In this document: one piece after another, positions 17,232 to 21,410 of the stretch
How positions within the stretch are numbered: position 1 is the stretch's first letter
How the letters are laid out: every line of letters starts with the position of its first letter
IMG/VR virus record: IMGVR_UViG_3300031508_000003
Coordinates: 1-21,741 of that record
DNA: 21,741 bases
Source: a virus
Strand: one strand, 5' to 3'
Notes under the pieces: generated by a model
Database searches by the model: none
Told to the model about the DNA's origin: nothing
Seen by the model: the letters and a program-made list of their open reading frames with translations, nothing else
Made by a program: the position numbers and the translations under genes

Positions 17232-18440
17232 TTAAAAATCAATCGTTGGGGCGCTTACAAATTGCGCTCTTTCGTACAGTGCAATCACGCTAAACTTGCC
17301 CAGCCGCCCGTGCGTCGCTTTGCGTACATAAACTACAAGTTCATTTTCTTTCTGTTGTAACATCAAAACAAGCTGACTCGCTTCTTCGAGAGCACCTGAC
17401 TCTTTCAAGTGCTCGAGTTGAGGCTCTTCTGTTTGCAAAGCTGCACGTGAAATCTGATTCGCTGCAATAATACAGATATTCAGTTCAAGCGCAAGACTTC
17501 GTAGTGTTCGAACTGTACGTTCTACAGCGTCTGCTTTACTGTATGCTTTGTCCGTGTGTCGAATGTGACTAATTTGATCAATAAAAATCACGTCAACACC
17601 TGCTGCGACTGCTCGTCTTATGCTTGCTACAAGCGTGTTTATATCGACGCTATAATCTTCAAAAAACATTATATTGTTTATATGTGATGTCTTGTCTGCA
17701 TTTTTTGCAATGACAGCATGCACCCCGCCTTGCGCTCGAAGTTCATGCATAGTAACATTACAAACGTTTGCAATTACGCGATTTACACACTGATAAGCAG
17801 GCATCTCAAGCGTTACAAAACCGACTTTGTGCCCCTGCTTTGCAAGACTTTCCGCCTCGTTTAGCAAAAACGTTGTTTTGCCGACACCGGGGCGAGCGGC
17901 GATTACGTGTAGATCACCGCTTCTGTAAGCAAAAAACAAGTCTTTCGCTTCTCGAAATTTGCTAAAAAAGAACTTTTCGTTTTTTATCGTTTGCTCAACC
18001 TCAGTCGCTTTCATCCATTTCCCAGCCTGCAAGTCTTGTAATTCGTTTAGTATTTTTTGAATAGCGTCACTGTCTATGTCGACATTACCTCTCTCGAAAT
18101 CTTTTTTAAGTTCATCTAATATCGAAAAAACACGATATTTCACGTAGATTTTTTTCAATCGTTCAAGAGCAAGCTGAGCTTCAACTGAACTCTGAGTATA
18201 CAAAAATTGAAACTCGACAGCGTCTTTGAAACTCATGTTTGTATCTACTGCAAACTCTGCGATGTCTAACGTGTCACGTGTATCTGCTTGTTTTTTAATC
18301 GCCTGAAATATTTTCTTATTCTCTATACTAAAAAACTTTTCTTTGTCATATAAGTATAACTTAAAAAACTTCAAGTCCTGAGTTGCTCGACCTAATAGCG
18401 CTTTTTGCGTCATGTCTGCAAGTTCAAGAAGTTTTACCAT
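17232..18440 (-). CDS. Replicative DNA helicase, DnaB-like
   Basis: 402 residues. N-terminal helical domain (about 1-130) like DnaB N domains, then a RecA-type ATPase: Walker A ARPGVGKTT (182-190), GFVTLEMPA (about 207-215, the DnaB LEM motif), Walker B VDVIFIDQISHI (about 282-292), and IIAANQISR. It unwinds DNA at the phage fork as a hexamer. It is slightly shorter than bacterial DnaB, as usual in phages. The ATG at 18440 is preceded by GGAGG repeats and overlaps the probable initiator gene by seven bases, so initiator and helicase are made together. Primase and polymerase genes are not seen in the window. Confidence 0.95.
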   Translation of the reverse strand: MVKLLELADMTQKALLGRATQDLKFFKLYLYDKEKFFSIENKKIFQAIKKQADTRDTLDIAEFAVDTNMSFKDAVEFQFLYTQSSVEAQLALERLKKIYVKYRVFSILDELKKDFERGNVDIDSDAIQKILNELQDLQAGKWMKATEVEQTIKNEKFFFSKFREAKDLFFAYRSGDLHVIAARPGVGKTTFLLNEAESLAKQGHKVGFVTLEMPAYQCVNRVIANVCNVTMHELRAQGGVHAVIAKNADKTSHINNIMFFEDYSVDINTLVASIRRAVAAGVDVIFIDQISHIRHTDKAYSKADAVERTVRTLRSLALELNICIIAANQISRAALQTEEPQLEHLKESGALEEASQLVLMLQQKENELVVYVRKATHGRLGKFSVIALYERAQFVSAPTIDF

Positions 18441-19312
18441 ACCTCCACCTCCTTCTCTGTGTTTTCATTGTGTGTTTTTTTCCATTCGAGATACTCGCCA
18501 CCGAGCATCGCATAGTCCCACGCCGACATGATCGGACACGTATGACCTTCTGTCCACATAAACGTCCTTTTTTTATATTTTTCTGCCCACTCGCCAACCT
18601 CGCGCATTGAAGGAAAATTGTCTACAATCTCTTGCTCTTGCTCTTGCTTTTGCTCTTGCTTCTGTGCATGTATTTTCTGTTCTTGCGCTCTGTTTATATC
18701 TTGCCAGTGTGCCCCGTTCCGCAGCGCTGCGATTACATAACCCTTAACATTTTCAATGTTTTTCTCTTTTGCTTGTTTTTCAAGACGCGTAATAGTATCG
18801 CAAATTACATCAACGTTTATATTCTTTTTGTCGTTTGTGTTCTTCTTTATAAAATTTGCATAAATACGCCAGTTTACACTTGTTTTTCTCAGTTTCTCTA
18901 TTTCGTCTTTCGTCCAAAACGCTGTCTTTTTATTTTTTGTCGTTTTAACCTGTGCCGTCTCTGTTTTCCTCTGTCTATTCCTTCTTTTTCTTTTTTTAGT
19001 TACTACATCATCTGCTGCATATTTTTTTTTGTAGTAATAGCTCACTTTTGCACTGTTTGCTTTTTTAACTAATTCTTGCATCATAACATCAAAATCATCG
19101 CTAATCGTAATCATTATAAATCGTTCGTCTTCGTTCTCAATAATCGTTCGCATGTTTTTATACATATAAAAACTCCGCCTCGAAAACCATTTTTTAAAAA
19201 ATTCCCACTCTGCAAAGTCAAATGTTTTTATTAGTGCAATTTTTAAAGCAACCTTAATATTAAAATTTTCCAAAAGCGTATAATATACTTTTACAAATTG
19301 CGCGTTACTCAT
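18434..19312 (-). CDS. Probable replication initiator / helicase loader
   Basis: 292 residues just upstream of the DnaB-like gene, the usual place of phage initiators or loaders. The first 80 residues (FVKVYYTLLENFNIKVALKI onward) resemble the winged-helix N-terminus of phage replication proteins. Then a very basic stretch (KKRKRRNRQRK, about 108-118) and a C-terminal part with IENVKGYVIAALRNGAHW, similar to the DnaD/RepA-like end where a helix precedes a Gly-Tyr-x-Ile-x-Ala-Leu motif. A Gln/Glu/Lys repeat at about 217-227 is encoded by a GCAAGA hexamer array. The start at 19312 has GGAGGGCGGGG before it and overlaps the upstream stop by eight bases. Family assignment is tentative; role from synteny. 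Confidence 0.65.
   Translation of the reverse strand: MSNAQFVKVYYTLLENFNIKVALKIALIKTFDFAEWEFFKKWFSRRSFYMYKNMRTIIENEDERFIMITISDDFDVMMQELVKKANSAKVSYYYKKKYAADDVVTKKRKRRNRQRKTETAQVKTTKNKKTAFWTKDEIEKLRKTSVNWRIYANFIKKNTNDKKNINVDVICDTITRLEKQAKEKNIENVKGYVIAALRNGAHWQDINRAQEQKIHAQKQEQKQEQEQEIVDNFPSMREVGEWAEKYKKRTFMWTEGHTCPIMSAWDYAMLGGEYLEWKKTHNENTEKEVEVW
18631..18664. repeat. Hexamer repeat inside the initiator gene
   Basis: Imperfect tandem copies of CTTGCT (GCAAGA/GCAAAA on the coding strand) encode a Gln/Glu/Lys stretch. It may be just a flexible linker, or, as in lambda gene O, initiator-binding repeats placed within the initiator gene. Confidence 0.7.
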
Positions 19313-19688
19313 CCCCGCCCTCCTCGAGTATTATTCCTAACTCCGCAGCGACGATGTGACAAGCATCTATCAAAATCGTTGCCTCCTGTGTTGTCGCATC
19401 GCTTTCCGATTTTGCCACAAGCCGCCCCCACCTGTCAATCCGATAAGGATACCCCATACCAACAGCCCGTTCCTTTACGTACCGTGCCACGTCGTGCAGA
19501 TTTTCCCCCGTGCTCATCGCTATTTGCCGCACATGCCCCCAAAAATGGTGGTTTTGCGACTTCCAACCAGTGCTGCGCTTGTCCGCTGCTTTTATTGTTA
19601 TTTCAAACAACTCAGACTTACTCGATAAAGCCAGCCCGAGCAGGCTACAAACCTGCTCGGCGATTTCTTTTTTTGCTATCTTTGTCAT
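19305..19688 (-). CDS. NinB/recombination-mediator-like protein
   Basis: 127 residues. The middle reads NHHFWGHVRQIAMSTGENLH, followed later by KSESDATTQEATILIDACHI and ending AAELGIILEEG. This sequence of features (Asn..Phe-Trp-Gly, a Glu-x-Leu-His helix, Ser..Thr..Glu helix, AELGI end) is what I associate with NinB-like and related phage recombination proteins, which help single-strand annealing or mediator loading. It lies between the first P2 gene and the initiator. Similarity is by eye, so family is moderately likely. Start ATG at 19688, four bases after the previous stop. Confidence 0.55.
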   Translation of the reverse strand: MTKIAKKEIAEQVCSLLGLALSSKSELFEITIKAADKRSTGWKSQNHHFWGHVRQIAMSTGENLHDVARYVKERAVGMGYPYRIDRWGRLVAKSESDATTQEATILIDACHIVAAELGIILEEGGDE

Positions 19689-19692
19689 TTTT

Positions 19693-20103
19693 TTACTCCC
19701 TTACGATTTTTTTAATTATTCGAGAAGCAATTTCTGCTGCTTTTTGCTGCTGCTCAGCTGTAAGCGAACGCTTAGCGTCTGTCAAGTTAGGGTACACTGC
19801 TTTCACACGATTGTTTTCAATGTCAAGCACAACAGCATTACCTTTCAGCGTGTCTGTGTCGAACCTATTCCCTTTTGCGCCCAAAATTCGCAAAATTGCT
19901 ACACAATTGCTTTTCTCGTTTGTCGAAAACGTAACAATTTTTGCGTAGTACTCGTTAAAGTTAGTAACAAACACAAACACCGCCTTTTTTACCTTGCGCC
20001 CCGTGTAGCCGTCCAAAACCTCAGCAGTAATGTCAAAGTGCGCAAACCAGGCAGGGAAGCGACCCGTCCTCGCGTTTTCCGCAGCACTCACAACAATTTC
20101 CAT
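19693..20103 (-). CDS. Hypothetical protein, first gene of the P2 operon
   Basis: 136 residues, ATG at 20103 with the strong site AAAGGAGGTAAAGT. I do not recognise the family. It looks like a beta-rich protein (KAVFVFVTNFNEYYAKIVTF, SNCVAILRILGAKGNRFDTD, LKGNAVVLDIENNRVKAVYP) with a helical, basic C-terminus (AEIASRIIKKIVRE). A beta-barrel nucleic-acid binder would fit, but no motif proves it. Being first after the origin-like region and P2, it is likely one of the earliest and strongest phage products. Confidence 0.8.
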   Translation of the reverse strand: MEIVVSAAENARTGRFPAWFAHFDITAEVLDGYTGRKVKKAVFVFVTNFNEYYAKIVTFSTNEKSNCVAILRILGAKGNRFDTDTLKGNAVVLDIENNRVKAVYPNLTDAKRSLTAEQQQKAAEIASRIIKKIVRE

Positions 20104-20135
20104 ACTTTACCTCCTTTTTTTTGTTTTACGCTTAT

Positions 20136-20164
20136 ATTATAACATGCCTTTTTAAATTTGTCAA
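20136..20164 (-). promoter_or_regulatory. Promoter P2 (sigma-70 type)
   Basis: TTGACA (20159-20164) and TATAAT (20136-20141), both exact consensus with a 17-base spacer, on the minus strand. Transcription would begin near 20129 and give a leader of about 25 bases to the first gene. Upstream T/A tracts with TTTTGCAAAA and the downstream TATAAGCGTAA mirror P1, so both promoters are probably controlled together. It drives the replication genes. Confidence 0.9.
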
Positions 20165-20207
20165 GTATTTTGGGGGTATTTTGCAAAAAAATTTTTCAAA
20201 ACCGCGA

Positions 20208-20237
20208 CCCACCCAGGCGCGCCAACAACGGGGTGGG
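20208..20237. other. GC-rich hairpin upstream of P2
   Basis: CCCACCC (20208-20214) pairs with GGGTGGG (20231-20237). The loop contains the palindrome GGCGCGCC (20216-20223). It stands out as a GC island in very AT-rich surroundings. It might end the lysis transcript (a T-rich stretch follows after a few bases) or serve as a structural site of an origin. Confidence 0.5.
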
Positions 20238-20350
20238 GCCTATATATAATATAATATGTCGCTTATAGAAATGTTATCTCTATTGTATATATAATATCTC
20301 TAAGATATGTTAGATATAAAAATATATGTTCTAAAGAAAGTCTATATATG

Positions 20351-20411
20351 TTTAGTAATATATCTAATGTTTAGTAATATATCTAATAGTATATTTAGTA
20401 ATATATCTAAT
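20351..20411. repeat. Three direct repeats of an 18-base AT-rich motif
   Basis: The plus strand carries TTTAGTAATATATCTAAT three times, at 20351-20368, 20370-20387 and 20394-20411, with no mismatch. Neighbouring sequence up to 20241 is almost pure A/T with related TAGATAT elements. Candidate melting region or protein-binding array. Confidence 0.9.
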
Positions 20412-20480
20412 AGCCGCTTCAGTCGACTTTGTAAGTGTCGGCCTTGCCGTGATTTAGAACGTGTTTTTGCGCTCGGGGCC

Positions 20481-20586
20481 GTGCAATTTTTTTAAATTAT
20501 AGTGCAAAAATTTTAAATTAGAGTGCAATTTTTTTAATGTATTAGTGCAATTTTTTTACTGTGTTTTTATGTTAAAAATTTTGCAC
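20481..20586. repeat. GTGCAA iteron-like array (4 direct, 1 inverted)
   Basis: GTGCAA followed by A/T tracts occurs at 20481, 20502, 20523 and 20545, i.e. at 21, 21 and 22 bases, and an inverted copy (TTGCAC) at 20581-20586 touches the stop of the last lysis gene. The units share the longer form AGTGCAATTTTTTTA. Spacing of two helical turns places all boxes on one face of DNA, as in iterons or multi-operator sites. Confidence 0.85.
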
Positions 20587-20861
20587 TAAAGATTCGTTTT
20601 TGAAACGTTGCTTACGGTAGCATTTGTAATTGTGATGTTTGTGAGACCTCTGATGTTTATGTTTATATTAGTAATTCCGCGCGCGTCAGACACAACTATA
20701 GTGCATTGCCCCTGAAACACCTCTGTTTGCTGTGTTTGCGTGTTGTAAATATACGTGCTTGTGTTATTAATGCGCGCAGGGAGCAAGTATCGCTCCCCGA
20801 CCACACCCGCGCCTGCCCCGAGCAATAGCCCAGTCAAAAACGCTGTTATTATCCATTCCAT
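20586..20861 (-). CDS. Small membrane-anchored protein, possible spanin-like
   Basis: 91 residues from the ATG at 20861; an ATG two codons earlier (20867) is too close to the GAGAGG ribosome binding site. One N-terminal membrane segment (about 3-22, IITAFLTGLLLGAGAGVV) is followed by a mostly beta-type ectodomain rich in Asn/Thr/Ile (ITNININIRGLTNITITNAT). It has a single Cys. Last gene of the lysis-like cluster. Such a small anchored protein could act as a spanin that joins inner and outer membranes, but it lacks the usual coiled coil, so the role is open. Confidence 0.65.
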   Translation of the reverse strand: MEWIITAFLTGLLLGAGAGVVGERYLLPARINNTSTYIYNTQTQQTEVFQGQCTIVVSDARGITNININIRGLTNITITNATVSNVSKTNL

Positions 20862-20903: not shown

Positions 20904-21410
20904 TTATGCGTTTTTCTTTCTTGTCTTTTTTGTTGTTTGTGCTTCCTCGCTTACTTGTTCCTGTTGTGCAATTTTTTCTAAAATCTCCACCGTAGCCTCC
21001 TTTTCCCCGCCCATCGCAGCCAAAAAGTCCGCAAACTCTGCAGGCGGGATGGTAATGCATCCATGCGAGCCGTCCCAGTTTAGTCCGCCGATGTGAATTT
21101 GCACCGCTTGTATTACCATTTTTCCGTTGTGATTCGGGTTCGGTCGTGTCGAAGGCAGGATGTCTGAGCCGTCCTGGGTGTACAGATGATACGCCGTGCG
21201 CCCGTCTCGTCGCGTAACCCGTTTTGCTATGTATTCCCCCGCTGCAACCTCGCCGCCCTGGTAGCCGTTCGTCGGGTCAGTGTTACAGTGCAACTCTACA
21301 AGCAGCTTGTCGTCTTTGTCATAAACTTGTAAAACCCCGTCATATTTGTCACCGTTTTTTAACAATATAGGCGTTTGTGAAGCTTTCTTGACAATCTTAA
21401 TTTTTTTCAT
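20904..21410 (-). CDS. L,D-transpeptidase-fold (YkuD-like) cell wall enzyme, putative lysin
   Basis: 168 residues. The YkuD catalytic signature is present: VQIHIGG (His106) and GSHGCITIP (Ser115, His116, Gly117, catalytic Cys118). A leading LPSTRPNPNHNG stretch fits the substrate-facing part. There is no signal peptide or membrane segment, so release to the wall would need a holin. The C-terminus is basic (TTKKTRKKNA). It overlaps the holin-like gene by 14 bases, and GGAGGAGG precedes the ATG. In this setting it is probably the phage endolysin-type enzyme that cuts or remodels peptidoglycan cross-links, in place of the usual amidase or lysozyme. Function as a lysin is inferred from context. 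Confidence 0.82.
   Translation of the reverse strand: MKKIKIVKKASQTPILLKNGDKYDGVLQVYDKDDKLLVELHCNTDPTNGYQGGEVAAGEYIAKRVTRRDGRTAYHLYTQDGSDILPSTRPNPNHNGKMVIQAVQIHIGGLNWDGSHGCITIPPAEFADFLAAMGGEKEATVEILEKIAQQEQVSEEAQTTKKTRKKNA

Follow-up and report, generated by a model that had tools for sequence, protein, structure and literature searches.

A Phased GTGCAA Repeat Array Beside the Replication Operon of an Unfamiliar Phage as a Probable Iteron-Type Replication Origin

In the viral DNA analysed here, the gap that separates the lysis-side genes from the replication operon (positions 20104–20585; 482 bp, 29% G+C) probably represents a phage replication origin of the theta type that is based upon iterons. 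This DNA, referred to below as the window, is a 21,741-base IMG/VR virus record, a fragment without a completeness estimate. The gap is read in this way because iterons beside a melting element, close to a helicase operon, are what an origin of this type is built from. In-phase direct repeats of about 17–24 bp, which are expected of such an origin, are present as an array with steps of 21, 21 and 22 bp; the adjacent AT-rich unwinding element that is also expected is seen at 20311–20410, with a GC-richer spacer of 67 bp in between; and where an initiator gene should lie nearby, a gene for a 292-aa protein with neither homology nor a usable fold is in the right place. From these features we infer the identity of the initiator, its binding to the boxes, the melting of the AT-rich block and the origin function of the gap.

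The sequence GTGCAA is found four times on the + strand at the right end of the gap, starting at 20481, 20502, 20523 and 20545, and once in the inverted orientation on the - strand (20581–20586). These positions, and the run of T or A that directly follows every one of the five copies, agree with a preliminary description of this DNA, in which four direct copies at 21, 21 and 22 base spacing and one inverted copy had been reported. The hexamer was there taken to be the box itself, and it is the invariant core, but the repeat unit is about 15 bp long (AGTGCAAWWWTTTTWA) rather than 6, because the five aligned copies agree over about 15 positions (common sequence (C/A)GTGCAA WWW TTTTWA; about 26 bits over 22 columns). 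The placing of the boxes on one face of the helix, which had also been proposed, applies to the four direct copies, whose phases on a 10.5-bp turn are 0, 0, 0 and 0.1; it does not extend to the inverted copy, since its phase is 0.52. The left end of the array has a computed intrinsic bend of about 78 degrees, which places it eighth in the top ten with seven sites higher. The features of the gap and of the operon are collected in Table 1, together with the arrays of the distant phages with which they are compared below.

Table 1. Features of the array, the gap and the replication operon (window positions), and repeat arrays within HTH_36/O-like genes of other phages.
Feature	Positions	Strand	Remarks
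Iteron 1	20481–20495	+	GTGCAATTTTTTTAA
Iteron 2	20502–20516	+	GTGCAAAAATTTTAA
Iteron 3	20523–20537	+	GTGCAATTTTTTTAA
Iteron 4	20545–20559	+	GTGCAATTTTTTTAC
Inverted fifth copy	20572–20586	-	GTGCAAAATTTTTAA
GC-richer spacer between iterons and AT-rich block	20414–20480	.	Sequence, local GC
Three AT-rich direct repeats of about 20 bp	20348–20413	+	ATGTTTAGTAATATATCTAATAG type
Proposed DNA unwinding element	20263–20412	.	Nearest-neighbour stability scan
Perfect sigma-70 promoter into replication operon	20136–20164	-	TTGACA-17-TATAAT
136-aa protein, first operon gene	19693–20103	-	Without family
127-aa NinB/Orf-like recombination mediator	19305–19688	-	PHROG 72, E 5.9e-6
292-aa orphan	18434–19312	-	Overlaps helicase gene
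DnaB-type replicative helicase	17232–18440	-	DnaB_C, E 2.2e-39; PHROG 19, E 7.9e-59
Array in HTH_36/O-like gene, L127/L144			22 bp, 3.6 copies
Array in HTH_36/O-like gene, L151			22 bp, about 3 copies
Array in HTH_36/O-like gene, L113			24 bp, 2.9 copies; domain match below Pfam's own cut-off
Array in HTH_36/O-like gene, L079			24 bp, 2 copies
Array in HTH_36/O-like gene, L009			GTGCAA at 21 bp, 3 copies
Array in HTH_36/O-like gene, L077			12 bp

The array fills the right end of the gap, and nearly all plausible genes of the window read leftwards. Proceeding leftward from the boxes, the spacer is followed by the AT-rich block of about 150 bp, a short GC-rich stretch and the promoter. The least stable stretches of 60, 100 and 150 bp in the entire window all lie inside the AT-rich block, and when the 21.7-kb window is ranked by its least stable 100 bp, 20311–20410 comes first and 20484–20583, which is the array itself, is the runner-up. 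As AT-richness is usual in non-coding gaps, the array and the low stability overlap to some degree as evidence. The AT-rich direct repeats, which resemble the repeats found inside DNA unwinding elements, are also located in this unstable block; for the block alone an equal tandem score was obtained in 8 of 500 shuffles, so that the repeats by themselves are only moderately improbable. The GC-rich stretch between the block and the promoter (20203–20241; ACCCACCCAGGCGCGCCAACAACGGGGTGGGGCC) folds no better than its shuffles. Five loose matches to the DnaA box, a number not above that expected by chance, were seen in the window, all of them outside the gap. The window extends no more than about 1.1 kb to the right of the array, all of its genes share a strand, and cumulative GC skew drops almost throughout.

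The promoter that reads into the replication operon is the sole strong one in the gap, and the operon's ATG at 20103 is preceded by AGGAGGT. The earlier placing of the array between the lysis genes and the early promoter is borne out, as on one side the inverted copy runs up to the TAG stop (20586–20588) of a 93-aa gene and on the other the promoter lies at 20164–20136 (-). A phage regulator could, in principle, bind cooperatively to these boxes as an operator or enhancer array and control the early promoter, or else the end of the lysis unit; phased direct repeats suit cooperative regulators, the inverted pair looks like a dimer site and a strong promoter is present within the same gap. The boxes of an operator are, however, expected to overlap or flank the promoter that they regulate, which these do not, and we consider this reading unlikely on account of the distance, over 300 bp, between the nearest box and the start of the closest strong promoter; the AT-rich block occupies part of this interval. 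The promoter-like match within the array is weak (9/12), and none of the window proteins searched was recognisable as a repressor. The distance of the promoter and the want of a recognised repressor also count against one half of the earlier proposal that the array is an origin or a master switch: the switch is disfavoured, whereas the origin agrees with the position of the boxes next to the window's least stable DNA and the AT-rich repeats, and with the helicase operon.

Iteron 4 and the inverted copy together form a dyad with 17-nt arms (20542–20558 and 20573–20589). Folded as a hairpin, it is better than its shuffles on both strands (z about -4.5 on the + strand and about -4.2 on the - strand) and it begins at the TAG stop, as would suit an RNA element in which the dyad (20542–20589) folds after the lysis-gene stop to act in termination or processing, the direct copies being of secondary importance. 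On the - strand, however, the stem is not followed by a U-tract and the array as a whole folds no better than expected (z -1.2), and such an element leaves unexplained why three more direct copies lie at intervals of two helical turns. An RNA element is in our view an improbable account of the array, although a hairpin function for the inverted fifth copy is possible.

Within the replication operon, the 292-aa protein is a candidate initiator or helicase loader by its position only, and as it matches nothing, the label "initiator" is a positional one. No Pfam family was found for it at E values up to 10, its profile comparison with three HTH_36/O-like proteins gave a probability of 0.1%, and searches of viral contigs, genome contigs, phages and plasmids yielded 0 matches. 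The single-sequence structure model of this protein (mean pLDDT 53) was too poor for use and gave no fold match. Among the window proteins searched there was also no homologue of Rep_3 or RPA. The gene content bears as well on a partition (centromere-like) or other protein-assembly site, of the kind found in phage-plasmids. Centromere sites, too, are made up of short direct repeats in phase next to a promoter, but no partition gene (ParA/ParM/TubZ type) was recognised among the proteins searched in this fragment and no integrase is in view within it, and a site of this kind seems more improbable still than an RNA element. On the lysis side of the gap, a 168-aa protein (20904–21410, -) adjoins the likely holin and contains HIGGLNWDGSHGCI, which we take to resemble an L,D-transpeptidase-type catalytic motif. 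This protein, which matches nothing convincingly in Pfam, PHROG or NCBIfam, is possibly a divergent lysis enzyme.

The regularity of the array is not readily produced by chance. When hexamers with at least 3 G/C were sought that occur four times at even spacing (±1) in dinucleotide-shuffled sequences, comparable arrays were seen in 0 of 2000 shuffles of the gap and 0 of 200 shuffles of the window. Similarly, the tandem-repeat score of 105 was equalled in none of 500 shuffles of the gap and none of 500 of the array block alone. Non-coding DNA readily gains short tandem repeats and the array is without demonstrated conservation, but a selectively neutral tandem duplication in an AT-rich gap is the least probable of the readings, and very doubtful, given that the GTGCAA core is invariant while the flanks have diverged between the copies and that one copy is inverted and separated, which is not a product of simple slippage.

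GTGCAA is also about twice as common as expected in the genes of the window (34 vs. about 16) and takes 13th place among 2080 hexamers in a comparison with synonymous-codon shuffles, which keep codon usage. A GTGCAA signal dispersed across the phage was considered and rejected: the excess reflects a generic codon-context bias, and the copies outside the array do not constitute such a signal because GTGCAA is one of many similarly biased words. Among other words in the coding regions of the window (1–21741), ATCGAT is commoner than expected with codon usage kept (40 vs. 13), and TTCGCG (0 vs. 13), CGATCT (0 vs. 8) and GAGATC (0 vs. 8) are absent, a pattern that possibly reflects restriction avoidance or a signature of the host.

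In an iteron-type origin at this gap, the initiator would bind the four direct AGTGCAAWWWTTTTWA boxes next to one another along a single face of the helix; it is plausibly the 292-aa protein, whose gene immediately precedes that of the helicase. The bound initiator would strain the AT-rich block (20263–20412), leading to melting at the three direct repeats, and the phage DnaB-type helicase could then be loaded at the melted block. The inverted fifth copy may delimit the complex or be bound by the initiator in reverse orientation. From the promoter at 20164–20136, transcription would supply the replication proteins and could also aid opening. That the 292-aa protein founds a new family of initiators, which uses intergenic iterons upstream of its operon in a phage group without close sequenced relatives, is a more tentative suggestion, and one that we regard as possible rather than likely.

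Searches of viral contigs with the 292-aa protein, the first operon gene, the helicase, the capsid and the terminase revealed no relative above about 40–45% identity, the best full-length terminase matches being about 40% identical. None of the 80 terminase relatives that were fetched, many of them short or lacking the upstream side, has the 292-aa protein or a GTGCAA array, and a two-box pattern with an A/T tail was found 0 times in viral contigs. Because no relative carrying the array was found, it is without support from conservation. At the DNA level, the phage matches listed for the gap cover only the segment with the promoter and ribosome site; three short and marginal matches to plasmids were obtained, two with this same segment and one across the right part of the array.

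Arrays of similar design are found elsewhere, and for these only likeness of design, not homology, is claimed. In distant phages, HTH_36/O-like initiator genes contain internal direct repeats of 21–24 bp in 2–4 copies, mostly followed by an A/T-rich stretch (Table 1); the terminase is homologous in L113, L127 and L151 and the helicase in L079. In genome contigs, GTGCAA arrays with a 21-bp period adjoin an initiator gene, of Rep_3 type in L054 and of RPA type in L060. A loose three-box pattern collected 63 stretches from genomes, many of which are unrelated Bacillales intergenic repeats or coding repeats, and because this collection had no control pattern, the link of the loose pattern to initiator genes (L009, L054, L060) is unquantified. 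Two other kinds of box were also observed. In Bacillus and Mesobacillus chromosomes (L022, L023, L025, L030, L038, L044, L075 and others), intergenic clusters of GTGCAATTA-type boxes, mostly with a 21-bp period and unconserved spacers of about 12 bp, are scattered between housekeeping genes; exact pairs number 19, 9 and 13 in three genomes, as against 0 for a reversed control pattern, and in L023, L025 and L075 a cluster lies beside a thymidine-kinase-like gene. These clusters are apparently unrelated to the phage array. In L010 (118–297, -), two near-identical blocks of ACCGTGCAA boxes spaced about 20–22 bp apart precede the gene of a 261-aa protein that matches HTH_24 weakly, and are a probable further iteron origin.

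If the gap is indeed an iteron-type origin, a replication origin will have been located for an otherwise uncharacterised phage lineage, small enough to be cloned whole, and the 292-aa orphan becomes its testable partner. It would also add a case of iterons placed beyond the initiator gene, where the distant phages of this comparison have them inside it; no change in the general understanding of phage replication is expected.

Lambdoid origins consist of iterons bound by O together with a melting AT-rich tract (PMC7466680). Like ori-lambda, the gap has four direct boxes near an AT-rich tract, and its replication operon is read from a strong promoter of its own. However, in lambda the iterons lie within the initiator gene and are directly flanked by the AT-rich tract, whereas here the array is intergenic, the candidate initiator gene lies about 1.2 kb downstream of it, and the 67-bp spacer parts it from the AT-rich tract; no relation of the 292-aa protein to lambda O was detected. 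The phages with HTH_36-type initiators (L009, L079, L113, L127 and L151) similarly have direct repeats of 21–24 bp in 2–4 copies in their replication modules, and L009 shares GTGCAA at exactly 21 bp with the array of the window, but their arrays are in the initiator coding sequence and the 292-aa protein has no HTH_36 match. On two counts, the intergenic array and the lack of a Phage_rep_O or HTH_36 match for the 292-aa protein, the gap departs from origins of the lambda O/HTH_36 kind. In iteron plasmids, Rep is bound to the iterons, a DNA unwinding element (DUE) with repeated 13-mers is opened and the helicase is loaded there (PMC4980987). L054 and L060, in which the iterons lie beside an initiator gene, likewise use GTGCAA boxes at 21 bp, and the repeated 13-mers in the DUE of RK2 oriV (PMC4980987) may be compared with the AT-rich repeats of the gap, although, unlike the Rep_3/RPA iteron plasmids, this phage encodes a helicase of its own. 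The proposed origin is of an ordinary kind, in an unfamiliar phage whose presumed initiator is without detectable relatives.
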